64,000 bases of DNA from a virus, in the IMG/VR virus record IMGVR_UViG_3300037140_000126, positions 1 through 64,000 of that record; one strand, written 5' to 3'. Below are positions 1 to 48,568 of this stretch, in pieces. The notes under the pieces were generated by a model. The model saw nothing but the letters and a program-made list of their open reading frames with translations, was not told the DNA's origin and did no database searches. How positions within the stretch are numbered: the stretch's first letter is position 1; each line of letters starts with the position of its first letter. Both the position numbers and the translations under genes were made by a program.

Positions 1-305
1 TCAAAGGAACTTCTTCTAATCGTGGACCATACCGAACCATTACTTGTACAAAATACAACTGTCGAACCACCACCCACCGTGCAGTCTAATAGAGACGTTC
101 CATCTGTTATCGTCGCAATTCCCCCCTTAACGGTGCTGGCGCTCGGCAGTCCGGACACAGTTGTTGGACTCAGGACAACTGGTTTAGTAAATGATTTAGT
201 TGCTGTGATCGTCTGATTATCCTCAACCGTAACTGTCGTGTGCGTCTGCGCAAACACACTCACCGCTGAAAGAGTCAATATAAAAAGCAAAATTAGTTTC
301 TTCAT
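1..305 (-). CDS. Secreted small virion-like protein, 3' end cut by the window
   Basis: About 101 codons are visible from ATG at 305, preceded by AGGGGG, and the frame is still open at base 1, so the C-terminus is missing. Residues 1-20 form a clear Sec signal peptide (two lysines, a hydrophobic stretch, VFAQ cleavage site). The mature part shares the pattern DCTVGGGS...CTSNGSVW with the N-terminal half of the secreted protein at 11944-12534 (DCTIGGGT...CKSNGSVW). It is therefore probably a third copy of the small member of the two-gene cassettes at 3.1 and 11.9 kb. It starts 7 bases after the stop of the gene at 313-672. Function unknown; by position a tail-fibre-associated or exported protein. 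Confidence 0.8.
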   Translation of the reverse strand, partial: MKKLILLFILTLSAVSVFAQTHTTVTVEDNQTITATKSFTKPVVLSPTTVSGLPSASTVKGGIATITDGTSLLDCTVGGGSTVVFCTSNGSVWSTIRRSSF

Positions 306-312
306 AAACCCC

Positions 313-672
313 CTACACTATAAATTCAGACCGCTGTCTGCGTCTTATCGTGCCCACCATGATGTTCGTGCTACCAGATACAGGCGGAGAAAACGGTATT
401 TGTTGCAGGACACCGCTCGTAAGAACTACCAACTGAAACGAAAATCCCCCCGGACTTTCCAATATGATCGAAGTGGAATAATTTCCGTTCGTGACTGGAT
501 TTTGTTGCAAGATTCCGCCTGTGCTAATCGTAACCGCCCAGGAGTTGCCGCCCGCATCATTCAAAGTCAGCGTAGTCGGCTGGCCACCGCTCGGCGTCTG
601 CGTAAGAATCCCTTGGTCGGTTACGCCAACAAGCCAGATTCCTGAACTACTGTCTGCAAGAAAAATATTCAT
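313..672 (-). CDS. Small tail-module protein built of a repeated beta module
   Basis: A 119-residue protein with no signal peptide. It consists largely of a repeated unit: SSGIWLVGVTDQGILTQTP, then GNSWAVTISTGGILQQNP, then FSFQLVVLTSGVLQQIP. Each unit has an aromatic/hydrophobic strand, a G-V-T or I-S-T turn, GxLxxxP and a loop. The same unit occurs inside the large tail protein at 48569-51691 and at the N-terminus of the tailspike at 42714-46382. This marks the protein as a virion component, most likely a fibre-attachment or decoration module. It ends RRRQRSEFIV. Structure and function beyond that are unknown; the name rests on the shared repeat. Confidence 0.75.
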   Translation of the reverse strand: MNIFLADSSSGIWLVGVTDQGILTQTPSGGQPTTLTLNDAGGNSWAVTISTGGILQQNPVTNGNYSTSIILESPGGFSFQLVVLTSGVLQQIPFSPPVSGSTNIMVGTIRRRQRSEFIV

Positions 673-703: not shown

Positions 704-3136
704 TCATGGTAGTCCGAACCACACTGCGTTGTTGCCTGGAGTTAGATACGCTCCGATGTTCCATTTGCCACTCTGAGCACCTGTCAGCACTCTATTCGGC
801 CACACTGATACAGGAAGCAAAGCGTTCTGATATGTCGAGCCTAGATTGACTCCTGAATTGATGGCCGGAGAACCGGATTGCAGAGTAAGAACATCACTTG
901 CTGGGGTCGTAAACTTTGGATCACCGTCAATCCCATGTACTTCTTGCGCCGCCACGGCTGCGTGGAATGCTACACGGCTCCCGTAAAACGAGTTGTACCA
1001 ATCTACGCAGGGGGACGCCCCGTTGCAGAAATAATCATTGTAATCAAACACGTTCGAGGTTGGATCACTGTGGGCTGTGTTATCGGCCCAAACAAGATCG
1101 CCGCTGCTGGTCACGTTGGCAAAGATGTTATTCTTGACCAATGTGCTGACTGTCGTTCCGCCATCACTCGCCCAGCCCAGTTGAAGAGCAATGCCACCAG
1201 TCGGATTGTAGAGAGTATTCCCATAAACGACATTAGAAGCTGACGACTCGCTCACGTTAGCCCGAATCCAAATAACCTTGTTAATTGACGTAGCCTGTCG
1301 TCCGTTCACGACGTTGTACTCAATCACATTGTTAGATGCCGACTCCATAATGATTCCGTATTGTGGTGTTGCACTTGCGCCGGTTGAAAACTTATTGTAC
1401 CGAATCGTGTCATGCGCACAGGAGTCGTTTGTTCCATTACCCGACTCATCGCACCACACCCCAAATTTGTTTGCCGTTGCTGTGCTTACGTTGTAGGCAA
1501 TATCCAGATACCAGCTATCCTCGCTCATTAGTGCTGCTCCAGAGGAAACTGAAGAGGTCCCGCTAATCGTGTTGTAGCGAAGGTAAGACCCTGTGTTCGC
1601 GTGGGTGCTCGCGTGACTGAATTTTATTCCTCCCGTGTAATTGTTGCTCGCAAGATCGCTGAGCGTGATGGTGTTAGAAAAAATGTGAACTGAATCTCCC
1701 CAAAGAACTTGGATTCCGCGCCAATCATTCCCGGTGTCCCCGCCAACATCGGAAATAGTGTTGCTGTCAGCGTCGAAGCCATCGAAATGCGTTGCAGCGG
1801 ACCCGATAGCGCCAATTCCGTAATGCCAAGTTCCGTTCAGGGTATTCCCGGTGATTGTCCAATTCACAGAGGTTCCCGAGCTGCGCGTTGGAAAGATCAA
1901 AGCGATGTTTGTGTAACTGCACTGCAATCCGCTGATCGTGATGTTTGTTTTGTCTACAGAGGTGATCGCATAGTTCCTCTGAGCGACTTCGAAGGTATGA
2001 CTCCCAGTTGTGGGGTTGCTACTTCCAGCATAGGTATAGAATCTGGAGTTGACGGAATCCCACCACCACTCTGTCACCGAGGCATCAGAATTAAGAGTAG
2101 TCTTGCTGGTCGCAACCGTCATGCGCGAGCCGTCTCGCCAGCCGATGTACGGAGTCGCGGATTCAGATGTGTACCAGAGATTTGTTCCGCTTACCGTGCT
2201 TAAAGATATGTCGTCCAGATAGTATGAACCTGCCCAAGAGTCCATTTTTATTTCGTCTACCGTCATCGAATTTGTGGCTAGTCCTGTAATTGTTTGCTCG
2301 GTGGTTCCATCAACCTTTAGAACACACCCACCCGCCGCCGGGTCGGTCACCATCACTAAATCAACTTCATGCCAAACATCGAGAACGGCGGCGACGTTAT
2401 ACGCGGAGGTAGATGTCCCGACAACCGAATTGTTATAGCAGGTAGCTGTGACTTGCAGATTGCTGCTGGCGTAGGTAAAGTGCAGTTGAGCAACCGTATT
2501 CAATGCTGCATTATACAGCCATAGCTGCGAATCTGGATTGGTTGTCGAATGGTTCGCCACCCACAACGTCCATGTAGCGTTACTGAGACTTCCGATAGAT
2601 GTCTTCGTTAGAGCAGAATCCTTATTTGACGCCGCCTCCAATACGGAGTACGTCCCCGAATGTGTAAGGGCAGTTGAAACTGTCCATCCAGCAGGAGCGC
2701 CGTTGTTGGTTGCCACCCATTTGGACAAGTCTCCGGTTTCAAATCCATCCGAAAATATGACACTACTACTAAAGTCCTGCGTCCATGCTCCTGTCGTATT
2801 AGCAGACGCCGATCCAAGAATTTTAGGTAGTGCCCCGCTACCGTAAGCTCCGTAGGTTATGACGTTCCCCACGGTGCCAGTCACCCCTACCGTTTCCATA
2901 TCACGCCACGTATCTCCACGATTCAGCAAGATTGAGTCACCAGCATTTATCGTTGTAGACGTGCAGACTGATGAGCAACCTGCCATTCCAGGTGCAAATG
3001 CCCATGACGCCCCTGTTGAAGTTCCAGCGGCAGCGTTGCTCCCAGCATTTGAGACGTAGTATGTCGTAGCCGAAGCCGGAAGCGCGAAGACCAAGAGCGA
3101 GAAAATAATTATAAATTGTCTCATCGTTGTTCTCAT
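704..3136 (-). CDS. Secreted right-handed beta-helix protein
   Basis: About 810 residues. I chose the ATG at 3136 because it overlaps the TGA of the upstream gene (ATGA), and a Sec signal peptide follows directly (MRTTMRQFIIIF, cleaved near PASA-TTYYV). The mature N-terminus (TYYVSNAGSNAAAGTS...A, then W around residue 40 and LNRGDTW) is typical of secreted pectate-lyase-like parallel beta-helix proteins. Residues about 125-320 resemble an inserted concanavalin-like carbohydrate-binding domain (FSDGFETGDLSKW...W, YYLDDISL). The beta-helix coils resume after this. The protein ends NNAVWFGLP, almost identical to the end of the otherwise different protein at 9713-11947. Likely a polysaccharide-binding or -cleaving adhesin; catalytic residues were not assigned. 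Confidence 0.75.
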   Translation of the reverse strand: MRTTMRQFIIIFSLLVFALPASATTYYVSNAGSNAAAGTSTGASWAFAPGMAGCSSVCTSTTINAGDSILLNRGDTWRDMETVGVTGTVGNVITYGAYGSGALPKILGSASANTTGAWTQDFSSSVIFSDGFETGDLSKWVATNNGAPAGWTVSTALTHSGTYSVLEAASNKDSALTKTSIGSLSNATWTLWVANHSTTNPDSQLWLYNAALNTVAQLHFTYASSNLQVTATCYNNSVVGTSTSAYNVAAVLDVWHEVDLVMVTDPAAGGCVLKVDGTTEQTITGLATNSMTVDEIKMDSWAGSYYLDDISLSTVSGTNLWYTSESATPYIGWRDGSRMTVATSKTTLNSDASVTEWWWDSVNSRFYTYAGSSNPTTGSHTFEVAQRNYAITSVDKTNITISGLQCSYTNIALIFPTRSSGTSVNWTITGNTLNGTWHYGIGAIGSAATHFDGFDADSNTISDVGGDTGNDWRGIQVLWGDSVHIFSNTITLSDLASNNYTGGIKFSHASTHANTGSYLRYNTISGTSSVSSGAALMSEDSWYLDIAYNVSTATANKFGVWCDESGNGTNDSCAHDTIRYNKFSTGASATPQYGIIMESASNNVIEYNVVNGRQATSINKVIWIRANVSESSASNVVYGNTLYNPTGGIALQLGWASDGGTTVSTLVKNNIFANVTSSGDLVWADNTAHSDPTSNVFDYNDYFCNGASPCVDWYNSFYGSRVAFHAAVAAQEVHGIDGDPKFTTPASDVLTLQSGSPAINSGVNLGSTYQNALLPVSVWPNRVLTGAQSGKWNIGAYLTPGNNAVWFGLP

Positions 3137-3738
3137 TGGAAATCCTGACTCGGCACGCATTTCGCGGCGGTGCCGTTAAGATAGCAGGAAATTATATCGT
3201 TGGTCGCCAGCGCACCAGTTACACCCGTACCTACCGTAATAGTTGGTGTGCTGCCACCGGGCCACTCCACGACTCCCCCACCAGATGTGCTAATCATGCC
3301 GTCATAGGTTGAGCTAGTGGACTGGTATATAGTGAGTTGAAGTTTGAACGTACCAGTGCTCGGCTGCGTGAAGGTCAGAGCGCATGTATCACCCGCCGTG
3401 AGCGTAACATTTTGAATGTTCCCGTTCGCGGGTGCAATAGTCGCCGCCGTCGTGCAGGTGCCGTTTGAGTATTCGGCGTTTGTAGCTAACTGCGAAGTAT
3501 TAATCAGTCCAAAACTCTTCGTTCCAGTGATCGTCTGAACATCCTCTAGGGTGACATCCGTGTGCTGCGACTGTGGAGGATCGGGAGCAGCAACATCATC
3601 AACGATTAAGTCAGGCACTAGACCATGAGGCATATCCAAGCTGAAACTCATCTTTGCCACACACATCGGTGCTTGCGCTAGAAGAACAAGAAAGACGATC
3701 AAGAACATTCTGAATTTCGGAGTTATGATATGTCGCAT
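3133..3738 (-). CDS. Secreted small cassette protein, partner of the beta-helix gene
   Basis: About 201 residues from ATG at 3738, which overlaps the TAA of the upstream glycosyltransferase as TAATG behind a GGGG ribosome site. Signal peptide MRHIITPKFRMFLIVFLV...CVAK. The C-terminal half (NTxYSNGTCTTAATIAPANGN..., then AGDTCALTFTQP, WPGGSTP and DIISCYLNG) is nearly repeated in the protein at 11944-12534. It has the look of the short beta-sandwich modules seen at the ends of phage fibre proteins. It is translationally coupled to the 810-residue secreted protein downstream, a gene order repeated at 12.5-9.7 kb. Probably forms a complex with, or presents, its partner; that is inference from the repeated pairing. 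Confidence 0.75.
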   Translation of the reverse strand: MRHIITPKFRMFLIVFLVLLAQAPMCVAKMSFSLDMPHGLVPDLIVDDVAAPDPPQSQHTDVTLEDVQTITGTKSFGLINTSQLATNAEYSNGTCTTAATIAPANGNIQNVTLTAGDTCALTFTQPSTGTFKLQLTIYQSTSSTYDGMISTSGGGVVEWPGGSTPTITVGTGVTGALATNDIISCYLNGTAAKCVPSQDFQ

Positions 3739-5072
3739 TATTTCCCCTGTCGGATGCACTGTATTGCTTGAATCACTTGCTCCAACGCGTCATCAAGCCC
3801 AATACCACTGTTCCTAAATAATCGGAGCGATGGATAAAACGGAGAATCACAACGGTTCAGTAAAAATTTCCAATCGGAGAGGCCAGGAATCATCACCCAA
3901 CATTTCTTACCTAGTGCACCTGCTAAATGAGCAACTCCGGTATCTACGGTAACGACGAGATCAAGATGTTCAATGATGCTTGCCGTGTCCTTCCAATTAC
4001 GAATGATTGGTGCCCATATGTTTTCAGTGGGTGCGTCCATCCCAAATTGTAAATTTACCCAACGAACACAATCAACAGCCAACAATCGGGTGGCTTGACT
4101 GAGATCAAGCGAGCGGTGTCTGCGTGGGTCAAGTCTCTCAGCACCCATCCAGCAAATTCCAACTGCTGGCTTTGATTTGTTAAACCACGCACTAGAATGA
4201 TGCATTTTAATATAGGGACCCAGTTTACTATCCTGTTCCGTATTCTCTACCGTTGCACCACACCGTTTTGCAAGCCCCATAATAGGAGCGAAATAGTCAT
4301 ACTGCTTTACACCATCTTTCTGAATATTTAGATCAACTTCTGGAAGCTCATCAGTGTCCGCTCCTTCATGGGTTGGTAGAATTTCATCAATCCACGGGTG
4401 CCTGTGCAGCAGTGGCACCATCACATCAGGGCACGCATACGTAATATGTGCACCCATCGCTTTCAAATTGCGAAACCAGCGCATGAACATCAGGTTGTCG
4501 CCAAAGCCGCCACCCTGCAAAACCAAGATGCGTTTACCTTGTAGTGGCTCACCCTGCCACTGTGGAATATATTGTGCGAGCCCTTCTTCCCAGAGCTTGC
4601 CCCAACAGTATTTTTCAAACAGTGGCCACGCTTCCTGCCAATCGCCTTGCCGCAGCCGCCCTTGGGCGTACAACAATCCAACAAATTGGTTCGTAGGATC
4701 GAGTTGATTCCCTTCGCTGGAAAGTTTCAATGCTTCGTCAAATCGTCCGAAGGTTTCAAGGATAACAGCAAGATTCAACAGTGTGTAGGCAGATCGGTTT
4801 AGCTCGACAGCTTTGCGGGCGCAGCATAAACCGCCCTCAGTATCTCCGGCAATATGCAGCGCAGTACCCAAGTGCATCCAAGAAAGCCAGTCAGCAGGTG
4901 TCTTACCTTTAGCACGGTCCACAAGCTCAAAGGCGTCAGCCCTCGTCATGATATAGCCAACACCAACATCAGGCACCAGTTTTGGATCATCATTCCAAGG
5001 CATCGCCCCAGAAGTAATATGAATTGGGCGTCCGTCGTTTAGTTCCAATGCATTTCCCATTAAGTCACCCAT
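3738..5072 (-). CDS. TPR-glycosyltransferase family 9-like protein
   Basis: About 444 residues from ATG at 5072; ATG at 5060, 12 bases downstream, has better ribosome-site spacing and is an equal candidate. The upstream extension of the frame overlaps another gene and was discarded. Residues about 50-170 contain two to three TPR-like helical hairpins (LGTALHIAGDTEGG, NLAVILETFGRFDEAL, DPTNQFVGLLYAQGRLRQGD). The C-terminal part has the heptosyltransferase-like pattern: ILVLQGGGFGDNLMFMRW in the N-lobe and LVVTVDTGVAHLAGALGKK in the C-lobe, the nucleotide-sugar-binding segment of GT9 enzymes. Likely transfers a sugar to a surface glycan or protein. It sits next to a GT2 gene and a double methyltransferase, suggesting a glycan- or virion-modification set. 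Confidence 0.8.
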   Translation of the reverse strand: MGDLMGNALELNDGRPIHITSGAMPWNDDPKLVPDVGVGYIMTRADAFELVDRAKGKTPADWLSWMHLGTALHIAGDTEGGLCCARKAVELNRSAYTLLNLAVILETFGRFDEALKLSSEGNQLDPTNQFVGLLYAQGRLRQGDWQEAWPLFEKYCWGKLWEEGLAQYIPQWQGEPLQGKRILVLQGGGFGDNLMFMRWFRNLKAMGAHITYACPDVMVPLLHRHPWIDEILPTHEGADTDELPEVDLNIQKDGVKQYDYFAPIMGLAKRCGATVENTEQDSKLGPYIKMHHSSAWFNKSKPAVGICWMGAERLDPRRHRSLDLSQATRLLAVDCVRWVNLQFGMDAPTENIWAPIIRNWKDTASIIEHLDLVVTVDTGVAHLAGALGKKCWVMIPGLSDWKFLLNRCDSPFYPSLRLFRNSGIGLDDALEQVIQAIQCIRQGK

Positions 5073-5259
5073 CCCCGCCGAAAGCACTACGCATGTCGGC
5101 AGCCTTGCGTAGCTGAGTACGTTTTTCTGCCATCGCCCACTCAAATATTTTGCAGTTGCGTTCAGCCTCTTGACCGAAAAACCTAGCAATTTCCAAGCCG
5201 CCTTCTTTTGCGACCCAATAATCGTTTCCTGATTCCTCGGGACAGAATGTAATCATCAT
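5065..5259 (-). CDS. Small hypothetical protein between two glycosyltransferase genes
   Basis: A 64-residue protein (MMITFCPEESGNDYWVAKEG...SAFGGDG). Its ATG overlaps the TGA of the GT2 gene upstream (ATGA) and its stop overlaps the start region of the GT9-like gene, so it is part of a tightly coupled operon. The acidic/aromatic N-terminus is followed by a charged, probably helical segment (GQEAERNCKIFEWAMAEKRTQLRKAAD). No recognised domain, no signal peptide and no membrane segment. It may be a small regulatory or accessory subunit of the flanking glycosyltransferases, but that is only position-based. Confidence 0.65.
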   Translation of the reverse strand: MMITFCPEESGNDYWVAKEGGLEIARFFGQEAERNCKIFEWAMAEKRTQLRKAADMRSAFGGDG

Positions 5260-5948
5260 GACAGCACCTCACCCTTCAATGGATCGCCAACACGCAACGC
5301 ATCAATCTTCGGCATGTCTTGCACCCAGGATTTACCAGAATGATGTATCACATGACTCTTAAAACTCAGCAGTGTGGCATATCCAGCGTTGTTCAACTCG
5401 TATGACGCATACGTGTCCGAACGTACATGAATCGTATCGTTTCTTGTTTCGTCCAGATACAGTCCAGGTGTTCCACGCCGTAACGCCATCATCGAGAAAG
5501 CCTGCATCAAACAGAGCCACGCATGGCCAGTAACACCGTGCTTCCCGGATTCACACCAGCGCTGCGGCGCTTCTTCTGACCACACAGACCCAACGAGTGA
5601 CACCTTCAAGCCTTTCTTTTTCGCTTCAGCCCACACGCTATACAATTCTTCAAGCCATCCGGGATTGACCTCGCAATCCGAATTCAGCAAGACAGCTTCA
5701 TGTGTCCGCACTAAGCGCAATCCCAAGTTTGCGGCTCGCGTCCACCACCGCTGTTTTTCAGAACGGATATATAAGCTCGACGGGAAGGCCTGTAAAATAG
5801 CAAGCATGTAAGCAGTTGTCGCAGGTTCACTCGCGTCATCGACAAAGATAATTCGATTCAGGTCAGGCGTGTGCGCCAGAACACTAGCTACACACTTATG
5901 CAAGTAAGAAAGTGCATCGTGCACGGGGATGACTATATCGACGGGCAT
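5256..5948 (-). CDS. Family 2 glycosyltransferase
   Basis: A 230-residue GT-A fold enzyme. The N-terminal strand and loop VDIVIPVHDALSYLHKC, then FVDDAS (nucleotide-sugar contact) and LLNSDCEVNPGWLEEL match GT2. NSD is the metal-binding DxD-like position. The length is short for the family, covering little more than the catalytic domain. No membrane segment, so it should act in the cytoplasm on a nucleotide-sugar donor. The acceptor cannot be told. It is followed with ATGA overlap by the 64-residue gene and preceded by a secreted FN3/DUF4082 protein and a two-domain methyltransferase, so glycan or virion-protein decoration is plausible. Confidence 0.88.
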   Translation of the reverse strand: MPVDIVIPVHDALSYLHKCVASVLAHTPDLNRIIFVDDASEPATTAYMLAILQAFPSSLYIRSEKQRWWTRAANLGLRLVRTHEAVLLNSDCEVNPGWLEELYSVWAEAKKKGLKVSLVGSVWSEEAPQRWCESGKHGVTGHAWLCLMQAFSMMALRRGTPGLYLDETRNDTIHVRSDTYASYELNNAGYATLLSFKSHVIHHSGKSWVQDMPKIDALRVGDPLKGEVLS

Positions 5949-5955
5949 TACTCCC

Positions 5956-6900
5956 CTATTTCATTCCCGTACAGCTTGCCGTTGTCGTCCCGCTCGTTAC
6001 CGATATCGAATATGGCCCTGTTGGCAGGTTAACAACGCCTGTACTAGCCGAAGGGCAGGAAATTGTCATAGACGGCGGTGGAACAGTTCCAGCAACAAAC
6101 ACGACATCCCGGAAATAATTGGAACTAAGGTAATTGCCTGTCGGGAACTTCCCGGGCCCGCCATATGTTCCATTATTGCCAACCACAGACTTTAGATTGC
6201 CACTTACGATCTGAGATGAGAATCCCGTATTCGAGTCAACATAATAGGTCGCCCCTGTATTGACACTCACCGTATAAGTTGTAGAGGCCAAAATGGGAAG
6301 TGCTGTTGCGAGTGCCTGTTGTTGCCAGCCCGAAGCGGTTTCCCCGGTGAAGTTCACTGTTGCCAGCGACACTCCACTGCTAGACCAGATGTGTCCGGCG
6401 TGCGTCCCTGTTTCATTAGACGCCTTCCAGAATCGAATCGCGGTAATTTGACCAGCCGTGTTGCTCTGGAACTTAGTCCCTAGCTCATAGTTCACGTTCG
6501 TTCCGTCGCTGTTATTGTTCGCTACTGGAGTTTGCGTCGTTAACAAAGTTTGGTTAGCCTGTGGAGTAACTCCACCGGGAATCGTTACAGGTGCAGCCGT
6601 CACCGCAGCACTAAAAATTCCCTGAGAATCTGTATTTAAAATAGAGTAGGTAATTGTTTGCCCAGCCGTAACTGCGCTGTCCACATAACTAAGGGTAGTA
6701 GGCGGGACGGTCGCTATAACGGTGTTATTTCTACTGATTTGGGTCGATGCAACCGTTTCCCCAGCCGATTGCGATGGTTGTGTCCATCCGATAGTTACCG
6801 AATGCTGTGCCGAGGAATTAAACCCAAAAGCAAGGATACATCCCAATCCGACAAGTATGCGCAACGTGATACTGTGATAATCCAACATTTTTTGCATCAT
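5956..6900 (-). CDS. Secreted FN3-DUF4082 protein
   Basis: About 314 residues from ATG at 6900, which overlaps the TGA of the methyltransferase gene behind GAGGAAA; a frame extension upstream inside that gene was discarded. The signal peptide ends FGFNSSAQ. Residues about 32-105 form a fibronectin-III-like domain (VTIGWTQPSQS...STQISRNN...LSYVDSAVTAGQTITYSI). Residues about 130-255 match the DUF4082 pattern (LGTKFQSNTAGQITAIRFWK, ASGWQQQAL, STTYTVSVNT, YYVDSNTGF), a putative carbohydrate-binding beta-sandwich found in large secreted bacterial proteins. A short tail with two cysteines follows. Likely an exported sugar-binding protein; an enzymatic role is not indicated. Confidence 0.82.
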   Translation of the reverse strand: MMQKMLDYHSITLRILVGLGCILAFGFNSSAQHSVTIGWTQPSQSAGETVASTQISRNNTVIATVPPTTLSYVDSAVTAGQTITYSILNTDSQGIFSAAVTAAPVTIPGGVTPQANQTLLTTQTPVANNNSDGTNVNYELGTKFQSNTAGQITAIRFWKASNETGTHAGHIWSSSGVSLATVNFTGETASGWQQQALATALPILASTTYTVSVNTGATYYVDSNTGFSSQIVSGNLKSVVGNNGTYGGPGKFPTGNYLSSNYFRDVVFVAGTVPPPSMTISCPSASTGVVNLPTGPYSISVTSGTTTASCTGMK

Positions 6901-7958
6901 ATTTTCCTCGCAATCACTAGAGAAGAATATCTTGGACATCCTGGTGTTGATTCATTGTCCAGCTTCGTCATCAGAGTTTCACAACCCAGCTTACACAGCA
7001 TCCCAGTTAGTTCTTCGATTCGGAAACCAGGATGCTTGTGATCGGTATTCCCGCCGTGGTAAAAATCAGGGTGTGGCACGTAGAGACCGATAGTGCCTCC
7101 GGGCCTCAGCACACGCACCCATTCGGTGAGCACTGCATTTGTGTCTTCGAAGTCTTCCAAGGTATGACTCGACCAGAGCCAGTCAAACTTTTCGTTTTCA
7201 AACGGGAGCTTGTCCGCTTCGCCACGATGGGTCACCTCCGGATAATCTGATCTATCAAACGCTACACAGTACCTAGTCAGTGGATCACGCGAGCAGCCTA
7301 CGTCAATTCCATTCAAACTGGCCTTGAAATAGGGCATCACCATTGCACGGACTTTACTCGTTTCAAGTGCATTGGACTGCTTCTCTGCTACAGCTACACC
7401 AGTTTTCTTGTCGAGCCGCACGTAGGACGCCGCTATATCCGTGGCGGTCTTAAAGAAAGATTCATACAGCGCCATCATTTTCTGATCTTCACCGACATCA
7501 TCAAATACAAGATAACCACCAGGAGCAACCAAAGGCCAACAATTTTCCAGGTCAGAATTTGCGGAAGTAGGGGACTCAAAGTTGTGGTCACCGTCTACCA
7601 AGACAAGATCGAATGGCTCACGCTTGTCCAAGCTCGGAATTGTCTTCGCGGAGTCTCCGTCAAGATACATGACCTCGCCGTTCAGATAACCCATAGCCTT
7701 CAGCATTCGTTCAACATGCTTGTGAGAGCGATCAAATTGCGTGCCATTGTTGTTTGCACCAAAGTAGCTTTCGTGCCAAATGTCTGAGATTACAATGCGG
7801 TTCAGGTTTTTCTTACAGCCAGCGAGCACGCGCAGAAGACTGTCACAGTAGCGCGTGCCCACTTCAAGATAACTGGATGGCTGTTTTTCGAGGGCGATCT
7901 GGAGCAATGCGTCCCAAGCGGCGTATTCAAAGCCAACATCTTTTAGGATTAACCCCAT
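6897..7958 (-). CDS. Two-domain SAM-dependent methyltransferase
   Basis: A 353-residue fusion of two class I methyltransferase folds. Domain 1 (about 1-195) has YLEVGTRYCDSLLRVL as motif I and FDLVLVDGDHNFESP plus PGGYLVFDDV as later motifs, the Methyltransf_24-like pattern used by cephalosporin- or sugar-type methylases. Domain 2 (about 205-353) has GIDVGCSRDPL, LPFENEKFDWLWSSHTLEDF and LRPGGTIGLYVPHPD, the Methyltransf_11 pattern. Both SAM-binding loops look intact. The gene is in the glycosyltransferase cluster, so O-methylation of a sugar is the simplest guess; the substrate is unknown. It is coupled to the secreted gene downstream by an ATGA overlap. Confidence 0.85.
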   Translation of the reverse strand: MGLILKDVGFEYAAWDALLQIALEKQPSSYLEVGTRYCDSLLRVLAGCKKNLNRIVISDIWHESYFGANNNGTQFDRSHKHVERMLKAMGYLNGEVMYLDGDSAKTIPSLDKREPFDLVLVDGDHNFESPTSANSDLENCWPLVAPGGYLVFDDVGEDQKMMALYESFFKTATDIAASYVRLDKKTGVAVAEKQSNALETSKVRAMVMPYFKASLNGIDVGCSRDPLTRYCVAFDRSDYPEVTHRGEADKLPFENEKFDWLWSSHTLEDFEDTNAVLTEWVRVLRPGGTIGLYVPHPDFYHGGNTDHKHPGFRIEELTGMLCKLGCETLMTKLDNESTPGCPRYSSLVIARKI

Positions 7959-7974
7959 AGCTCACCTATACCTT

Positions 7975-8595
7975 TTAGAAATGCTCAAACAGGCCGAGTT
8001 TCAATTCAATCTCTGGATGACCTGCGGCCTTCGCTGCGCTATTAAAGGCCTTTTTGAATTGCCTGACTGTACGATGTACGGGTGTAAACGGGACAGTTAG
8101 GACACCAACCTTAAATTGCCCGTTCAGTTTTGCTTGCATGCGGGACTGCACCGCTGCGGGAAGTTGTTTGATAAACCCAGCAATTGTTTCGAATATGATT
8201 TTTCCTAAGCTCAATACAACATTGATGATCGGATTCGTCACTTGCAATTGTGCGAATAGGCTTTGAAGGTTTCCAACAATCAAGTTGAACACCTCTTCAA
8301 GCTTTGCAAGCGTGCCTGCCGGTGGCGGATTCACTGATCCATAGGCTTTCGCGTCTGCGATTAAATCCGTAAACGCCGTGTCGATTACAGGAATCAGCAA
8401 AGAGATTGCCGGACTAACAAGCCCAACACCTTGTAAGAGGCTGATAATACCGTCAAACGCTGATTGCCCTACTGGAGCCCAATTCTCAATATTCTGTGCT
8501 AAATTGCAACCTTCTAGGGTAAGCGAAACACCACTCGCTAGTACAAGCAATCCTGTACCAGCGTGCTTTGTAAACATTCTTCGTGAAAGCACCAT
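7975..8595 (-). CDS. Tat-exported putative lipoprotein
   Basis: About 206 residues. ATG at 8595 is 7 bases from GGAGG; a GTG two codons upstream is less well spaced. The N-terminus LSRRMFTKHAGTGLLVLASG fits the twin-arginine consensus (S-R-R-x-F-x-K plus a weakly hydrophobic stretch). It ends at LTLEGC, a cysteine in lipobox-like position although the -2 residue is glutamate. The body is mostly hydrophobic amphipathic helices (SLLQGVGLVSPAISLLIPVID, INVVLSLGKIIFETIAGFIK), then a basic C-terminus. This resembles Tat-leader proteins of soil bacteria more than usual phage genes. It may be an envelope-anchored accessory protein; function unknown. Confidence 0.75.
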   Translation of the reverse strand: MVLSRRMFTKHAGTGLLVLASGVSLTLEGCNLAQNIENWAPVGQSAFDGIISLLQGVGLVSPAISLLIPVIDTAFTDLIADAKAYGSVNPPPAGTLAKLEEVFNLIVGNLQSLFAQLQVTNPIINVVLSLGKIIFETIAGFIKQLPAAVQSRMQAKLNGQFKVGVLTVPFTPVHRTVRQFKKAFNSAAKAAGHPEIELKLGLFEHF

Positions 8596-8655
8596 GAACA
8601 CACCTCCGTAGATTATGCTAAAGCTGTAACAAACTCAAATACACTTCCATGGGCA

Positions 8656-8689
8656 TAGTGGACTGCTTCGGCAGACAAGCAGCCCACTA
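8656..8689 (-). terminator. Strong hairpin, possible terminator or RNA element
   Basis: TAGTGGGCTGCTT pairs with AAGCAGTCCACTA across an 8-base loop, broken only by a G-U pair. It lies in the 111-base gap between the genes at 8707 and 8595. No T-run follows on the minus strand, so a classic rho-independent terminator is not established; it could protect an mRNA end or be a processing site. Confidence 0.45.
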
Positions 8690-8706
8690 CAGACAGCAGG
8701 TCAGAA

Positions 8707-9171
8707 TTATTCGGTATGCGAGATGGTCGCATCCACTGCGACTGCAACCGAACCTGTCTGTGTTGAATCAAGTACCATCTGGCCGTTTGGAGCAGTCGCG
8801 CCAGTGATGCCCTTTGCTTCCTCTTCAATCGTAGCGAACCAAAGACCTGTTCCCCTCGTGTTAAACGCAAGCTGCACCGAGGGCACAGCACTACGTGATC
8901 CAGCAGTTGGCAGCGTGTTAGCAACAGCATTCGCTGAAGGCTGATCGTTCTGTGCTGGCATCGGCACAATCGCACCGCCAGCGGTTAATAGAGTGGTTGT
9001 ACGGACCAAACGCAAACGAATCTGTACGTCAGTCGCGTTCGTGTTCGGCCCGGCCTGCAGACGCCTGATTTGGGCGCGAAGCCCAGCAATCGCAACGAGA
9101 CTCAGTAGAGCGACGTTGGTACCGGCTGACGAGGACGTGCTTTGTTCCGAAACTGTATCGAACCAATACAT
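8707..9171 (-). CDS. Hypothetical protein, possible structural component
   Basis: 154 residues from ATG at 9171 behind GGAGTG. The N-terminus (MYWFDTVSEQSTSS...) is followed by a hydrophobic alanine/leucine stretch (NVALLSLVAIAGLRAQIRRL) that could be a short membrane-associated helix. The remainder is rich in T, A, V and S and resembles beta-structure (VQIRLRLVRTTTLLTAGGAIVP, QMVLDSTQTGSVAVAVDATI). No known family recognised. It lies between a zinc-ribbon gene and the Tat protein. A longer reading frame over its 3' half in another phase (8613-8975) has arginine-rich nonsense composition and was rejected. Confidence 0.65.
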   Translation of the reverse strand: MYWFDTVSEQSTSSSAGTNVALLSLVAIAGLRAQIRRLQAGPNTNATDVQIRLRLVRTTTLLTAGGAIVPMPAQNDQPSANAVANTLPTAGSRSAVPSVQLAFNTRGTGLWFATIEEEAKGITGATAPNGQMVLDSTQTGSVAVAVDATISHTE

Positions 9172-9177
9172 AAGGTT

Positions 9178-9471
9178 TCACTCCTTCGGTTTTGAAATAA
9201 GTTTCGCCTCGGGAATGATTCCGTAGGCGTCCAGCACACTCTGCGGAACCGGTGTCCCGCCCAGCATCATCATGTCAGCATCACACGCATCACAGGTAAC
9301 AACAATATGTTCAGGGGCAATAAACTTACTCGAATCCAAACTACAAAATCCGAGAGGTTTGCCGCACAAGAAACAATAAGTTTTCTCGGAGGCCAGCATA
9401 GGATGTGAGGTCTTCCCAAAATAGCCTTTCAATCGGCTATCGGCATCTTTGTAAAGCTTACCTTCACTCAC
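9178..9471 (-). CDS. Small zinc-ribbon protein
   Basis: 97 residues starting at a GTG that overlaps the TGA of the upstream gene (GTGA). Two cysteine knuckles, CFLCGKPLGFC and CDACDAD, spaced about 30 residues apart, suggest one zinc-ribbon in the centre. The C-terminus (VPQSVLDAYGIIPEAKLISKPKE) resembles small anti-termination or co-regulator-like phage proteins only loosely. No DNA-binding helix is obvious. Function unknown; it is probably co-translated with the 64-residue gene before it. Confidence 0.65.
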   Translation of the reverse strand: MSEGKLYKDADSRLKGYFGKTSHPMLASEKTYCFLCGKPLGFCSLDSSKFIAPEHIVVTCDACDADMMMLGGTPVPQSVLDAYGIIPEAKLISKPKE

Positions 9472-9662
9472 TCGCCACCGTCCTTGTAGCAGTTGATTCC
9501 ATTACCTAGCACATCAATTTCTACTTGATTGAACAAACTGCTGAGAATCCCTTTCAGCGTTGGGTCAGTTTCACGTTCTGCCAGCCTGCGAAAGCGCTCC
9601 TGCAAATTCTCCAAATCGTACAGTGCTACGCGAACGGAATCTTTCCTGTGTTTCATGGCCAT
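9468..9662 (-). CDS. Small hypothetical helical protein
   Basis: 64 residues (MAMKHRKDSVRVALYDLENL...CYKDGGE). Mostly one amphipathic helix with alternating charges (LENLQERFRRLAERETDP), suggesting dimerisation or a protein-protein contact. It overlaps the following zinc-ribbon gene by GTGA. No convincing ribosome site is visible upstream (AGTGAACTGAT), so its start is less certain. No family recognised. Confidence 0.5.
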   Translation of the reverse strand: MAMKHRKDSVRVALYDLENLQERFRRLAERETDPTLKGILSSLFNQVEIDVLGNGINCYKDGGE

Positions 9663-9712
9663 ATCAGTTCACTCCGAATACTTGCACTTCATCATCTACC
9701 ACACTGAGAGCA

Positions 9713-11947
9713 TCATGGCAGTCCGAACCAAAGCGCATTGCTTGCGCTTGATGGATAAGTCGGGATCACGTTCGCGTTGCCGCCAGCCCACGAACTGATT
9801 TGCACATTTGCTAAGGTTGGCGTGTAGATGTTCATTCCTGGGTATCCGCTGGTCAGATAGTTGTTGTAGTCTTCGACCTGTAGAATTAAAAAGCCATTCT
9901 GGAAGGCCGATAGAATCGGGAATCCATCACTGCCTGTAGTCACTTGCAACCGAAACTTATCTCCGATTTGAGAGGTGACCTGGGCGGCGGGGCCAATTAG
10001 ATGAGTTACGCCCGCGACGATTGTGGCTATTTGAAAGAACGTATCCGCCGTTCCCGTAGGCCCCGAGTTCGATATTATGTATTCGCTGTTAGCTCCCGTT
10101 TGCGTGCGGACAGCAGGACCGGCATACGATGCGGAGCCAAGCGTCGTAATGGTGATTTCTGAATACTGGTTAGCCGAAAAGGCAGCCCCTGTATAGGCCA
10201 TGGTGCTAGATGTGCTGGTTGCGGTGGCCTCAACGAGATTTCCAGAAACTATTTGCAGCTTTGTAGAGCCGGTTGGTGTCACCCAATTAGACGATAGATT
10301 TCCAGCGCCGCTAGTGAACGCATCAGCGGCGATCTGTGCTGCGGCATCTTCGTTAGTCGTCACAATCTGAGCAATAGAAGCCGGGCCGATAGCCAGCTCT
10401 ACCTGAGCGACTACTGGATTTACTGCATCCCCAACCCCTACATCCATTAAAAAATTCGCAACGCCCCCAATGTCCGTGATGTATGACGCAAACACTTGTC
10501 CGGTGGTGGCGTTCAATGACTCGAACATCTGCGTGTTGTGGACTGAGTGAGTAGGGTTGGTCCAGTTAATGAAGTCTGTGGTTTGATACCGTACAATTTC
10601 TGTCGGGTCCAAATCAGGGACGAGCGAGTTGCCTCTCCCCGGCTGGTTAGTCGCAGCCCACATATAGTACGTGCTGCCTACTGGCGTGACGCAAAACGGC
10701 AAAGTATTCGCGAGCACAGGGTTGCTTCCGGATTTCACCCAGTTGATGCCATCGGTAGAAGTCACGAGACCTGTGGAATACAACCCGGCCGTAGCGTTAG
10801 CGGCGCTGGTGCCTGCATACAGACCATACCAAGTTCCCGCTATAATTGCCGTAACCTGAATGCCGTACACGGAAGCGGCATCCCAAGTTCCGCTGGTGCC
10901 CAACCCGATGACTTGAGAAGGGCTTTGTAGCGTCCAAGTTATTCCGTCTGAACCGGGACTTCCTCCACCGAGCGCCCCCGTGAAAACAGCGATGTTGCCT
11001 GAACCAGATGCGCCATCCGCCTGAGCGTACAAATAGTAAGTGCTTCCGTTCTTAAAAACTGTAGCGTTCATGTATCCGGCAATGGCGGCAGACGAGGCAC
11101 GAGTCCATGTTTTCAAGTCTGTTGACTCTGCATAGTAGACACCGTTGCCGCTCGCCGGGCGACTGGTTAGCCACGCCTTATAGACGGTGCCAGATAAAAG
11201 CTGCGCGTTCCCTTCATGTAAAATACTGGTAGAAGTCTGAACCCCCTGCCCTGCGGGACTTCCACTCAAATCCGTTGCAATAGCCGGAATAACGACGCCT
11301 TGCTTCTGCCAGATGCCGTCTTGCTGAATGGCGGAATATCCCCGCCAGGAAAGAACCTGCGAATGAGATTCGCTTACATTGTTCGAGTTTTGCCGATATC
11401 CAGGGGATCCAGAGGAATAGGTGGAGTCGTAAAATACGAAAACGCGAGCGTTGTTTTGGTAAATGGTGATGCTCGATCCAGCCATAGAAAGCGCCCAAAC
11501 ATCTGCGGGCGCAAAAGTTAAGCCTGTAACTGTACTTCCCAACTGCACGATAGAAAGCCCTGGGTCTATCCGATACATTAGAATAGTGCCGTTGGTGATT
11601 TCGGCCAGATACCCGGTACCAGCTGCGTCAGTCCAGCGATCAATCAGTTGAAGATGAGTCCCAGGTTCACTGGTTAAATTCACAGAAACTTCTGAGATTT
11701 GATCTGACGGCCAAGTGAGCCCGCTCCAATACTGAGCGCCCCATGTGTTTAGAACTAATCCGCCCTCGGATACATTGGGGCTGCCAGACACCACTACAGA
11801 TTTGAGAGGGCCGAGGCTGCTAATCGCAGACCATCCTGCAGCCATGCTGCCGGAAGCGAAATTATCCGAAGCGAGAAGCTGGTTGTTTGCGGCGCGCAGC
11901 GGCAGCGCCAGCAGGAACAGAAACGCGAATAGAATTAGCCGTCTCAT
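9713..11947 (-). CDS. Secreted five-bladed beta-propeller protein (GH43/32-like)
   Basis: About 744 residues from ATG at 11947, which overlaps the TGA of its small partner (ATGA); the extension upstream of it lies in the partner gene. Signal peptide MRRLILFAFLFLLALPLRA. Residues about 20-190 look like a LamG/concanavalin sugar-binding domain (DNFASGSMAAGWSAI, SEVSVNL). The middle (about 215-480) has blade repeats such as YYAESTDLKTWTRAS, DGITWTLQSPSQVI, TSTDGINWVKSGSNPV and YQTTDFINWTNPT, the TDxxxW signature of GH43/GH32/GH62-type propellers. A second jelly-roll domain (about 560-720) follows, and the end is SNALWFGLP. Probably binds or trims host surface polysaccharide; the catalytic Asp/Glu residues were not assigned. 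Confidence 0.78.
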   Translation of the reverse strand: MRRLILFAFLFLLALPLRAANNQLLASDNFASGSMAAGWSAISSLGPLKSVVVSGSPNVSEGGLVLNTWGAQYWSGLTWPSDQISEVSVNLTSEPGTHLQLIDRWTDAAGTGYLAEITNGTILMYRIDPGLSIVQLGSTVTGLTFAPADVWALSMAGSSITIYQNNARVFVFYDSTYSSGSPGYRQNSNNVSESHSQVLSWRGYSAIQQDGIWQKQGVVIPAIATDLSGSPAGQGVQTSTSILHEGNAQLLSGTVYKAWLTSRPASGNGVYYAESTDLKTWTRASSAAIAGYMNATVFKNGSTYYLYAQADGASGSGNIAVFTGALGGGSPGSDGITWTLQSPSQVIGLGTSGTWDAASVYGIQVTAIIAGTWYGLYAGTSAANATAGLYSTGLVTSTDGINWVKSGSNPVLANTLPFCVTPVGSTYYMWAATNQPGRGNSLVPDLDPTEIVRYQTTDFINWTNPTHSVHNTQMFESLNATTGQVFASYITDIGGVANFLMDVGVGDAVNPVVAQVELAIGPASIAQIVTTNEDAAAQIAADAFTSGAGNLSSNWVTPTGSTKLQIVSGNLVEATATSTSSTMAYTGAAFSANQYSEITITTLGSASYAGPAVRTQTGANSEYIISNSGPTGTADTFFQIATIVAGVTHLIGPAAQVTSQIGDKFRLQVTTGSDGFPILSAFQNGFLILQVEDYNNYLTSGYPGMNIYTPTLANVQISSWAGGNANVIPTYPSSASNALWFGLP

Positions 11948-12534
11948 TGGAAGTTCTGACTCGCTACGCAGTAAGTGTTCGTGCCATCGAGATAGCAACT
12001 AATGAAATCAACCGCTCCGGTCGTGGCCGTGATTACGGGGACGGTGCCACCAGGCCATTTGCCGCCAGAGATCAGACCGTTATAGCTCACGCTCGCGGAC
12101 TGAATGATCTTGAGTTGAAGTTTGAACGTACCTGAACTTGGTTGCGTGAAGGTTAGTGCACATGTATCACCAGCCGTAAGAGTGATCTTCTGCACGTTCC
12201 CGTTGGCGGGAGCGATGGTGGCTGCGGTCGTGCAGGTGCCGTTTGAGTATTCGGTGTTCGTGACCAGCATTGGAAAGGGAGAGGCGGGATTGAAACCGGT
12301 AACTGCCCATACAGAGCCGTTTGATTTACAGTGGACCAGATTTGTTCCACCGCCAATTGTGCAGTCGGTCGCACTCAAACCATCGAGAACGATAATAACC
12401 TTGCCACTCGCAAGGCTAGCAGCTGGCAGGCCACTCACAGTCGTTTGTGCCGTAAACGTAAGCGTCTGCGCGAATGAATTTGTTGTAATACAAAACAACA
12501 ACATCAGCATCAAACTGAGTAGAAACGTTCTCAC
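11944..12534 (-). CDS. Secreted small cassette protein, partner of the propeller gene
   Basis: 196 residues from a GTG start overlapping the upstream TGA (GTGA) with GGAGG in position. Signal peptide MRTFLLSLMLMLLF...NSFAQ. N-terminal half: SGLPAASLASGK...DCTIGGGT...CKSNGSVW, shared with the truncated gene at 1-305. C-terminal half: NTEYSNGTCTTAATIAPANG, AGDTCALTFTQP, WPGGTVP, DFISCYLDG, shared with the protein at 3133-3738. It thus links the three small secreted paralogues. The reading frame is coupled to the propeller protein downstream. A virion-surface or exported adaptor is likely; biochemical role unknown. Confidence 0.78.
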   Translation of the reverse strand: MRTFLLSLMLMLLFCITTNSFAQTLTFTAQTTVSGLPAASLASGKVIIVLDGLSATDCTIGGGTNLVHCKSNGSVWAVTGFNPASPFPMLVTNTEYSNGTCTTAATIAPANGNVQKITLTAGDTCALTFTQPSSGTFKLQLKIIQSASVSYNGLISGGKWPGGTVPVITATTGAVDFISCYLDGTNTYCVASQNFQ

Positions 12535-28458: not shown

Positions 28459-29145
28459 CTAGAAAAGTCCACTAAACTGTTTGTGTCTCCGCGTTTCTTC
28501 TGAATGATCTAATCGAGCAATTGCTACTTTGCAATATTTCTCTTCAAGCTCGATACCGATTGCCTTACGACCCAACTTCTTAGCAGCAACCAAAGTTGTA
28601 CCACTACCCATGAAAGGATCACAAAGCAATTGTCCTTCTAAAGTAAAAATAGAAATTAGGTATTGTGTCAACTCCATCGGTTTGGCAGATGGATGCTCAA
28701 TCTTTAGACGGTTAGCACCAAATGGTGCAAGCTTCTGCACGAAGTAATCCTTACGGCGTGTGTCCGGCTTCCCAGGACAATCCCCCCACCAAACAATCGG
28801 GTCCCAGCTCCACTGGACAGCGGTCGGTCGGAACTGCACAAAACCTTTGCATGCGGAAAAAATTCTATAGTCATGCGGAGAAAACCAACGGTGCCACTTT
28901 GTACAATTTGGTAGAGCCTGCCAAAACGCTTTAACTCCCGTTGGACACAACTTCTCGCAAAGAGATATTACACTAAGCATAAAAGCTTCATACTGTTCTG
29001 GTGAGTCCGTCCATGTTGCACGGTCGAAGGAGATCCCAAACGGTGGGTCCGTAAGCACACAATCCACAGAACCAATCTGCTGCAACACTTTCCTACAATC
29101 ACCCAAGAATATCTGAATACCATTCTTGTTGTAGTAGGGCTTCAC
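28459..29145 (-). CDS. DNA methyltransferase (DPPF type)
   Basis: About 228 residues from GTG 29145, which overlaps the polymerase stop (GTGA). That start aligns VKPYYNKNGIQIFLGDCRKV with LKPYYGPKNGITIYGGDCRK of the second methyltransferase; the longer frame lies in the polymerase gene. Motif IV VLTDPPFGISF near residue 29-37 and motif I CDPFMGSGTTLVAAKKLGRK near 172-190 place it in the N6-adenine/N4-cytosine beta-type class. It has no recognisable restriction partner, so it is an orphan enzyme, probably for anti-restriction or regulation of phage DNA. Confidence 0.85.
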   Translation of the reverse strand: MKPYYNKNGIQIFLGDCRKVLQQIGSVDCVLTDPPFGISFDRATWTDSPEQYEAFMLSVISLCEKLCPTGVKAFWQALPNCTKWHRWFSPHDYRIFSACKGFVQFRPTAVQWSWDPIVWWGDCPGKPDTRRKDYFVQKLAPFGANRLKIEHPSAKPMELTQYLISIFTLEGQLLCDPFMGSGTTLVAAKKLGRKAIGIELEEKYCKVAIARLDHSEETRRHKQFSGLF

Positions 29146-31859
29146 TGGGCACCACGCACGGAGCGGATTTCTTTCCACAACTCACGCTGGCACTTCTGGT
29201 TCTCGACACACCAGTTTTCAAGAAACTGACCTAACTGCATACCCTCTTCTATGTCCACCATCACGCCGTAACGGAAACCAGCTTTAATATCAGCCTTGAA
29301 CGGCACGCGCCAGTCCAGCTTGAAATCTTTTTTGAGCGTGTCGATTACGTCGTGCTCCGCAAGCTGCTTGATAACAGCACGCCCTTCAAACAACCGGCGC
29401 AGACGAACACGAATAGACACAGCATCATGATTCTCGGATTCAGGCGTACGGATCAACTTGTATTTCTCGGGCTCTCTGTGCAGCAACGCAAGACAGATTA
29501 GTAATACCTGATGTGCCCCACCTTGGATAGGGGCATTTACTGCAAGATTTTCCCAGTAGCCACCTGTGTCCGCATTCACATCAATAGGACAACGGAAGCC
29601 TAGAATATTCTCGACGTAGCTTTTCTCTTCGGCCATTCTCCGCATACGGTCGATGAACGCTTTCACCCTCGCATAACGCTTGAAGTAACGAGCAAGCATT
29701 TCTGAAACCGCCTTGACGTTTGCAATCGTTTTACTCACGCCCTCACGCAACAGCCGCGTGACAATACCCTCAGCAGTAAGCCCATAAATCAGTCCAAAAT
29801 GAAAGCCCTTAATCGTTGTACGCTTGTCGCGGTCTTTCGCAATCAGTTCCCTCGGCCAGCCGGTCAACTCATGCCCGACTTCACAGTGAATGTCTTTGCC
29901 GCTACGAAACGTCTCAATCAGCGATTCATCTCCTGATGTCTGTGCGAGGAAGCGCAACTCGTTCTGCGCATAGTCGAATTTCAGATAGACGTAATAATCA
30001 AGAAAAGGTTTGTACCATTCGTCTGAGGTATGTTCTTTCCAGGCGTCATACAGTTCCCGCCAGTGCAAATCACTCACGAGCATATTTTCCACATGCTGGT
30101 CGCCTACGATGTTCTGCAAATTCACGGTCAGGAATTCTTCTCCTTCACGACTACCACCAGAGGACAATCTACCTGTCTTAGTGCCTGTGAGCCAGAATTT
30201 TGTAAAGAGCCTACCACCATGTGCAGCTGCACAATTCTTGAACGCCATTCGATATGTCGATTCCAGTTTACTATCAGACCGATATGCAATAATTTTCTTG
30301 GGCATTTCGTGGTAGTGGTCTAATGCTTCCAACGTGGCATGGCCAGTCGTTACTTTTTTACCTAGAACAGGCAGCTTTAACTTCCCATACAAAACCTTAG
30401 ATACTTGCAGAGGCGACCCTGGATTGAAATTTGGATCACCCGCCATTATTTGTAACTCTTCTTTTTGGCGTTTCAGGCGTGCCGGATAAATCTCACCCAA
30501 CAAGTCACATTGCTTCGCATCGAACCACGGACCGTTCTTCTCCATACGGTCCAGCGTAAACGCGGCATCCATGTAGACGTGCAACAGTGGCAGACTAATC
30601 TCTTTCTTCGTGCTAACTTCAATGCGCTTCGTCAAGTCAGCATCGGCTGCATTTCTCAGCACCAACCGTTTCCACGGGACTTTCGAGAAATCAAGTTTCC
30701 CTGCTTTCGTTGCAGCGTCGTATGTCATCCCTTCTGGTGCTGCCTCAGGCATGACAACTTCCTTGAAGCCTGTAAATTCAGGGAAGCGGACAGCGGCTAT
30801 CTCAGCAAGAGCATACGAACGGCGACCAGGATAGCGAAAGTATTCCGCATAGTTCGTATCGTAGTCGTAGCCCTCAATCTCATAGCCAAGCAAACTAGGG
30901 TTCTTATTCAAATCATAGGAACCGTGCTGCAAAGACTTCCTAATATTCTTGTCTGTAAGCAGTTCCTTGACATCGCTACGAAGTGCAGCACGGGTAATTG
31001 GGTCCAGTTTTTTGCGTTCTTCATGGTCGGCCAGATATACCCTAGCCCAACCTGGTCGAATCGAGAACGCCCAAGAAAGTGCAACACGCTTGCCATCTAC
31101 TTCGCCGTCCTCAAGATCAACCGCTACACGCACTTTCTTCGCAGCCTCCTGAATCTCATGCTTTGTTTCTATCGAGTCGTGAACCGTCGTGATACCCTTG
31201 TAGTCCTGCTCCTCTAGGTAACTGAATTTCCCACCTTTTTCTTTTGCAAATCTTGCGGCAGCTTTCAGACCCGCATCGAACGCATGATACTTAGCTTGTG
31301 GTGCCACACCCCTAAGGAAGTAGGCAGGATGGTCGAGCACAACCACACGGCCATTCAGCTTATCGGACCAGAATATCTTGTCACCATGATATTTATTCCC
31401 AAACAATTGCTTTGCGGCAACCTTTCCGAGAACGATATGAACTTTCGCTTTGGACTTCGCTATTGCTCGGTCAGTGTAGAGCGAACAGCAAAACAGTTCT
31501 TCCTTTGACGGATCACGCATGTGCAACTGGCCGTCTTTACGGTCAGCCGGAAAACAGCGTTGAACATTTTGTATGTCACACTGCTCACGCCTCAAACCCA
31601 CCTGTTTCATACGTGCCCAAAACCACTGTCCACTTTTGCCCCAGAGTTCTATGCCCTCTAGGTTCTCTTGAGGACCGGGAGATTGCGCCCACACGAATAT
31701 ATCTTTACCTTCTACTGTACCCTTGATTTTCTGGATGCCCTTGACTTCATTCAGCGGGCAGTATTTGCAACCGCGCAGATGCAATCGTGGGTTCTTCGAT
31801 TTCTTGCCGCGTTCGATTGGCCCCGCATCTGGCCACAATAAAGAGTGATGCTCAGCCAT
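29142..31859 (-). CDS. Uracil-DNA-glycosylase-like / family A DNA polymerase fusion
   Basis: 905 residues. Residues about 28-215 look like a family 4/5 UDG-superfamily domain: GCKYCPLNEVKG, IFVWAQSPGPQENLEG, ELWGKSGQW, VHIVLGKVAAKQLFG and VVVLDHPAYFLRG. About 235-430 is a 3'-5' exonuclease-like region (VAVDLEDGEV, LQHGSYDLNK). The polymerase domain has motif A YLKFDYAQNELRFL (near 628), motif B RTTIKGFHFGLIYG (near 685) and motif C NHDAVSIRV (near 810). The usual motif C Glu after the catalytic Asp is Ala here. The 5' nuclease is a separate gene (35444-36415). Replicative polymerase, probably with uracil sensing or repair. Confidence 0.85.
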   Translation of the reverse strand: MAEHHSLLWPDAGPIERGKKSKNPRLHLRGCKYCPLNEVKGIQKIKGTVEGKDIFVWAQSPGPQENLEGIELWGKSGQWFWARMKQVGLRREQCDIQNVQRCFPADRKDGQLHMRDPSKEELFCCSLYTDRAIAKSKAKVHIVLGKVAAKQLFGNKYHGDKIFWSDKLNGRVVVLDHPAYFLRGVAPQAKYHAFDAGLKAAARFAKEKGGKFSYLEEQDYKGITTVHDSIETKHEIQEAAKKVRVAVDLEDGEVDGKRVALSWAFSIRPGWARVYLADHEERKKLDPITRAALRSDVKELLTDKNIRKSLQHGSYDLNKNPSLLGYEIEGYDYDTNYAEYFRYPGRRSYALAEIAAVRFPEFTGFKEVVMPEAAPEGMTYDAATKAGKLDFSKVPWKRLVLRNAADADLTKRIEVSTKKEISLPLLHVYMDAAFTLDRMEKNGPWFDAKQCDLLGEIYPARLKRQKEELQIMAGDPNFNPGSPLQVSKVLYGKLKLPVLGKKVTTGHATLEALDHYHEMPKKIIAYRSDSKLESTYRMAFKNCAAAHGGRLFTKFWLTGTKTGRLSSGGSREGEEFLTVNLQNIVGDQHVENMLVSDLHWRELYDAWKEHTSDEWYKPFLDYYVYLKFDYAQNELRFLAQTSGDESLIETFRSGKDIHCEVGHELTGWPRELIAKDRDKRTTIKGFHFGLIYGLTAEGIVTRLLREGVSKTIANVKAVSEMLARYFKRYARVKAFIDRMRRMAEEKSYVENILGFRCPIDVNADTGGYWENLAVNAPIQGGAHQVLLICLALLHREPEKYKLIRTPESENHDAVSIRVRLRRLFEGRAVIKQLAEHDVIDTLKKDFKLDWRVPFKADIKAGFRYGVMVDIEEGMQLGQFLENWCVENQKCQRELWKEIRSVRGAQ

Positions 31860-47933: not shown

Positions 47934-47937
47934 TGTT

Positions 47938-48567: not shown

Positions 48568-48568
48568 G

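Follow-up and report, generated by a model that had tools for sequence, protein, structure and literature searches.

Two gene pairs in a phage genome as a candidate Sec-exported version of the two-gene tail-fibre arrangement

The host range of a phage is set by its tail fibres, and the assembly of tailed phages takes place in the cytoplasm. To our knowledge, every tail fibre described so far is made there, and none is exported through Sec; the literature searched contained no description of one, which by itself does not prove novelty. Among the closest described systems is the two-gene tail-fibre arrangement (SPN3US gp143/gp142, Curtobacterium phage Shrew 43/44 and Cyanophage SS120-1), in which a small or medium fibre gene with the same end module as in our locus is followed directly, or with an overlap, by a variable tail protein. 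However, these known pairs have no signal peptides and no hairpin cysteine pair, and their shared terminal peptide, where it is seen (marine-type pairs), is N-terminal (MPLGA[F/S]RLN), whereas it is C-terminal in our cassettes. The P22 tailspike, which cuts glycans and can be added at a late stage to a particle that is otherwise complete, even in a lysate, is like the fibres proposed below in these respects, but it is made in the cytoplasm without a signal peptide and docks by its N-terminus. Llp, a lipoprotein of phage T5, and further superinfection-exclusion proteins are phage-encoded, exported and active at the host surface, as the cassette proteins might be, but they are neither tail-fibre modules nor members of a two-gene fibre pair. 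Enzymes with a GH43/GH32-type propeller (PDB 4qqs) resemble one of our large proteins by a family-profile match over its middle, and differ from it in that it has concanavalin-like flanks and is phage-borne.

The DNA analysed here (the window) comprises 64,000 bases of a 124,954-base IMG/VR virus record. The two ends of the record overlap by 243 bases with one mismatch (242/243 identical), so the record is almost certainly a circular phage genome of about 124.7 kb. We found two operon-like gene pairs, both on the minus strand, and in each pair the small gene is joined to the large gene by an ATGA overlap (Table 1). All four proteins start with a Sec-type signal peptide, called here and throughout by eye together with a simple heuristic, which confirmed the secreted two-gene cassette design of the original prediction. 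The modules of the two small proteins are 73-75% identical, and small protein 2 matches phrog_19200 (virion structural protein) at 9.9e-06. The bodies of the two large proteins are unrelated in sequence, and had been described as unrelated folds, a beta-helix and a beta-propeller. A profile match supported the propeller of large protein 2; the beta-helix of large protein 1 is plausible from its repeats, although no profile searched confirmed it. We regard large protein 1 as a probable beta-helix with an inserted lectin-like domain.

Table 1. Positions of the features discussed in the text (rows marked L010 and L012 belong to two other phages)
Feature	Position	Strand	Remark
Start of 465-aa exported fibre	1-305	-	continues across record join
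Non-exported 119-aa protein	313-672	-	beta-domain copy, read from sequence
Large protein 1 (704)	704-3136	-	810 aa, Cys-rich, ends NAVWFGLP
C-terminal peptide NAVWFGLP, large protein 1	707-730	-	
Large protein 1 signal peptide	about 3068-3136	-	
Small protein 1	3133-3738	-	201 aa, ATG start; fibre modules, C-terminal Cys-type module
Small protein 1 C-terminal Cys-type module	3136-3480	-	
Small protein 1 signal peptide	about 3655-3738	-	
Exported DUF4082 protein	5956-6939	-	true start inside ORF
Large protein 2 (9713)	9713-11947	-	744 aa, ends NALWFGLP
C-terminal peptide NALWFGLP, large protein 2	9716-9739	-	
Large protein 2 signal peptide	11891-11947	-	joined directly to ANNQLLASDNF
Small protein 2	11944-12534	-	196 aa, GTG start; mosaic tail-fibre modules and C-terminal Cys-type tail-fibre module
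Small protein 2 tail-fibre C-terminal module	11947-12258	-	hairpin pair SCYLDGTNTYC
Small protein 2 signal peptide	12469-12534	-	
Non-exported tail spike (beta-helix)	42714-46382	-	
Three consecutive exported proteins	46387-48612	-	ASH/HYDIN-type Ig domains; adjoin tail genes
L010 exported large protein	5507-7354		ends WGLSFGL
L012 exported large protein	7723-10341		ends WGLGFGM

The last ~100 residues of the small partner form a module found across phages. Among 16 module relatives, eleven match phrog_19200 (virion structural) and six to nine match the tail fiber families phrog_3904, 7760, 9017 and 22179. Noxifer, PhiEaH1, SPN3US, Shrew and Mel-JY34 have genes that end in the module and bear the annotation tail fibre or minor tail protein, and the module genes sit among virion genes. 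In the named phages a second gene often follows directly after the module gene, so that other phages share the two-gene design. Judged by these matches, the C-terminal end of the small protein is a phage tail-fibre C-terminal module, and the whole pair would be an exported form of a gene pair common in phages, a relation missed by the first reading of the locus.

A virion tail fibre is expected to be assembled in the cytoplasm and to have no export signal, and both small and both large proteins carry one; tail-fibre relatives without signals exist in IMG/VR loci and in named phages. A hairpin cysteine pair (SCYxDGTxxYC or close) was present in 12 of the 13 modules whose protein bears a signal peptide or a lipoprotein signal (LAGC in L052), the exception being L064 with a different cysteine pair, and in none of 30 modules without a signal peptide from IMG/VR loci and named phages. 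Five of the loci (L051-L055) had been picked by the cysteine pattern and not by the signal, which was present in all of them whose gene start lies in the sequence. Through a module tree built without the cysteine-pair columns, we found that the two traits switch about four times, two of the switches being well supported; therefore the row-wise test (8e-10) overstates independence. Switching of one trait without the other was supported only for L064. Phages with an exported fibre contain one strong copy of the module each, the exported one, and a search for additional non-exported copies in them gave only a weak match (G002). A single scan of bacterial genomes for a source of the Cys-type module gave one truncated match, in an Omnitrophica MAG (L049, MHHG01000030.1); in this bacterial bin the module is followed by a very large secreted protein.

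Export is shared across the pair. Of 12 exported module proteins, 11 are followed by a gene that likewise has a signal peptide, with the window counted twice, the near-copies L054 and L055 counted once and the next gene of L021 truncated at the end of the contig; for non-exported module proteins the count is 0 of 15. The exception is L015, in which the small protein is exported and the next one is not. Signal peptides called on the next gene in L047 and L043 were rejected as false positives, both proteins starting with the shared MPLG peptide. The exported proteins include a 1071-aa tail-fibre protein in L055 (phrog_24210 at 7e-41) and a 335-aa virion structural/tail spike protein in L064, both with a signal peptide, and an LtfC-like small protein with a signal in L012. 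The Mu-like phage of L012 has the gene order gp45, gp46, the baseplate genes gp47 and gp48, a short depolymerase-C-like gene and a 709-residue signal-peptide protein, an order that places an exported protein in the tail-fibre slot.

Considering these features, we propose, tentatively and with a probability of about 0.45, that the cassettes are a Sec-exported version of the ordinary two-gene tail-fibre arrangement, disulfide-locked and docking by a C-terminal tag, which joins the particle as an accessory fibre. Against this, assembly of tailed phages is cytoplasmic, the phage also encodes a normal non-exported spike, the signal peptides were called by eye and heuristic, the link between signal and cysteine pair goes back to about four switches in the tree, L015 breaks the shared export of the pair, and the aromatic C-terminal tails were a post hoc observation. 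The pairs may instead be exported but never joined to the virion. They would then work from the infected cell, free or bound to the surface, as adhesins and enzymes that cut glycans, and would mask receptors, against superinfection and loss of progeny on debris, or loosen extracellular polysaccharide before release. Signal peptides on several tail-region proteins, the lipoprotein signal of L052, the separate spike kept by the window phage and the GH43/GH32-like propeller, suited to polysaccharide cutting, all agree with such free action, but in several phages the exported fibre is the only module copy, sometimes in the canonical fibre slot, and no obvious virion fibre is left. We hold free action to be possible but doubtful. 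We give a slight preference to attachment as an accessory fibre over free action, since without it some phages would have no fibre; in the window phage, which has a separate ordinary spike, both are possible.

Large protein 2 has six relatives at 43-54% identity. Five of them (L063 and L065-L068) lack both a signal and a small partner and start with MANNQLL or a similar sequence, and the sixth, L064, is the sole exported relative, with a small exported fibre protein just upstream. The signal is placed exactly before ANNQLL in the window and before VNNQLL in L064, and a short aromatic C-terminal tail together with a small partner was found only in these two exported members. We rejected a cytoplasmic twin translated from an internal start, there being no start codon near the mature end. 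The middle of the protein matches the PDB 4qqs family profile (1.8e-07 over 180 residues) as a five-bladed propeller of GH43/GH32 type flanked by concanavalin-like domains. The Pfam families GH32N/GH43 were matched in some members of the family only, and several acidic residues are invariant across it. We consider the protein a putative GH43/GH32-type propeller enzyme.

The last eight residues of the two large proteins, NAVWFGLP and NALWFGLP, agree with the shared C-terminus first described. Among the 152 ORFs of the record no other pair has as many C-terminal residues in common, WFGLP is found at a C-terminal end only twice in the 125-kb record, and 0.01 occurrences of the back-translated tag pattern are expected in the window. 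Recombination could have left such a peptide behind if the large gene were exchanged by homology at the conserved 3' ends of the small and large genes, which would act as arms: over their last 18 bases the two large genes differ at one position, and the upstream arms (the small modules) are about 73% identical in DNA. However, four of the eight tag codons differ, three of them synonymously, and the identity stops at the tag, upstream of which the two proteins diverge at once; this points to a peptide, not DNA, kept by selection. The common C-terminal end of L010 and L012, which are different phages, also argues against recombination, and we regard it as unlikely. WFGLP might be read by a host factor, without involvement of the small partner, as a signal for envelope sorting or for a chaperone, since the peptide is short, aromatic and C-terminal on exported proteins. 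Such a signal seems very unlikely to us: the large proteins stop at WFGLP, without the membrane segment and basic tail typical of PEP-CTERM and LPXTG-type signals, and WFGLP is absent from the exported relatives in other phages and from the other exported proteins of this phage.

After a conserved ...NANVIPTY, the tails of large protein 2 and its relatives differ (SSASNALWFGLP in the window, SSTFFIFGR in L064 and other tails in the unexported relatives), so WFGLP is specific to this phage. The absence of the exact tag from homologues in other phages had been named beforehand as evidence against a shared tag, and this went against the original prediction. The second refuting observation named beforehand did not turn up: neither the IMG/VR scan nor the record yielded a WFGLP end lacking a small partner. 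The scan for NAxWFGLP followed by a stop gave just two antisense chance matches, of one unrelated phage type. The proposed role as a sorting, docking or assembly tag is therefore retained in part: conservation at the peptide level, on unrelated bodies and with parallels elsewhere, speaks for it, and the phage-specific form of the exact tag speaks against it. It is still the best reading of the C-terminal end, and the shared eight residues are probably a docking tag.

The parallels come from other phages. The exported large partners of L010 and L012 have unrelated bodies and share their last 40 residues at 53% identity, ending in WGLxFG[LM]; in the module tree, the small partners of these two group as sisters. 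A tryptophan lies within the last eleven residues of seven of the ten exported large proteins, a post hoc count in which some of the seven are related. The varied second proteins of the non-exported pairs (L014, L024, L028, L030, L040, L042, L045, L047, L105 and others) share an N-terminal peptide, MPLGA[F/S]RLNxL, which looks like an N-terminal docking tag. A terminal peptide plugging different bodies onto a fibre thus seems to be general, and we infer that this docking peptide moves to the C-terminal end when the N-terminal end serves export.

From the observed sequence features, gene order and co-occurrences we infer export, disulfide, docking and virion attachment, the last with the least certainty. 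Late in infection the pairs would be made alongside the other tail proteins, and both proteins would pass via Sec into the periplasm. The small protein would bring the fibre C-terminal module, locked there by a disulfide across its last beta hairpin, and the large protein would be a glycan-binding or glycan-cutting spike. The peptide NAxWFGLP would dock the large protein onto its small partner, replacing the N-terminal MPLGAFRLNxL-type docking of non-exported second proteins, whose N-terminus is signal-free. At lysis the folded pair would meet the particle and most likely attach as an accessory adsorption fibre. In a broader form, we suggest with some hesitation that some tailed phages build adsorption parts via Sec, as disulfide-bonded two-protein fibres that fold outside the cytoplasm, are kept together by a short, phage-specific terminal peptide and attach to particles at lysis or afterwards.

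If the export is real, part of the cell-binding apparatus of a virus would be made outside the cytoplasm, unlike in known tailed viruses. A class of exported, disulfide-bonded fibres, if true, would change the annotation of such genes and be a source of stable fibres and glycan enzymes; it would also make testable the completion of particles outside the cell or the use of secreted fibre-like weapons or shields. That terminal peptides are shared suggests a simple rule for plugging unrelated spikes onto one and the same fibre.

The truncated gene at the left end of the window had been taken as a hint of another cassette. A third WFGLP cassette was rejected there, considering that the record is circular and the gene continues over its join without a tagged partner. 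The next gene encodes an exported 261-residue protein ending in GGKAGIGD. The 465-residue fibre shares N-terminal modules with both small proteins (VSGLPxAS...DGTSLLDCTxGGG...CxSNGSVW and DNQTITxTKSF type) and is kin to the two cassettes, but has no WFGLP.

In the window phage, about ten exported proteins are grouped in the tail region, from the tape measure to the record join, a stretch that also includes genes for glycosyltransferases and methyltransferases. Lying between the two cassettes, at 3738-5948 and 6897-7958 on the minus strand, are glycosyltransferases (GT9-like with TPR, and GT2) and a methyltransferase, which might modify the fibres or the host surface. At 7975-8601 (minus strand), among the tail genes, a protein has SRRMFTKHAG...LEGC near its start, with the look of a Tat-type lipoprotein signal. 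A beta domain, DSSSGIWLIGVTD...GNSWQLxITTGGIL, recurs in the free 119-aa protein, in the non-exported spike and in a tail protein at 48569-51691 (minus strand), and may be an adaptor. The minus-strand gene at 29142-31859 encodes a family A DNA polymerase with a uracil-DNA glycosylase domain fused to its N-terminal end.
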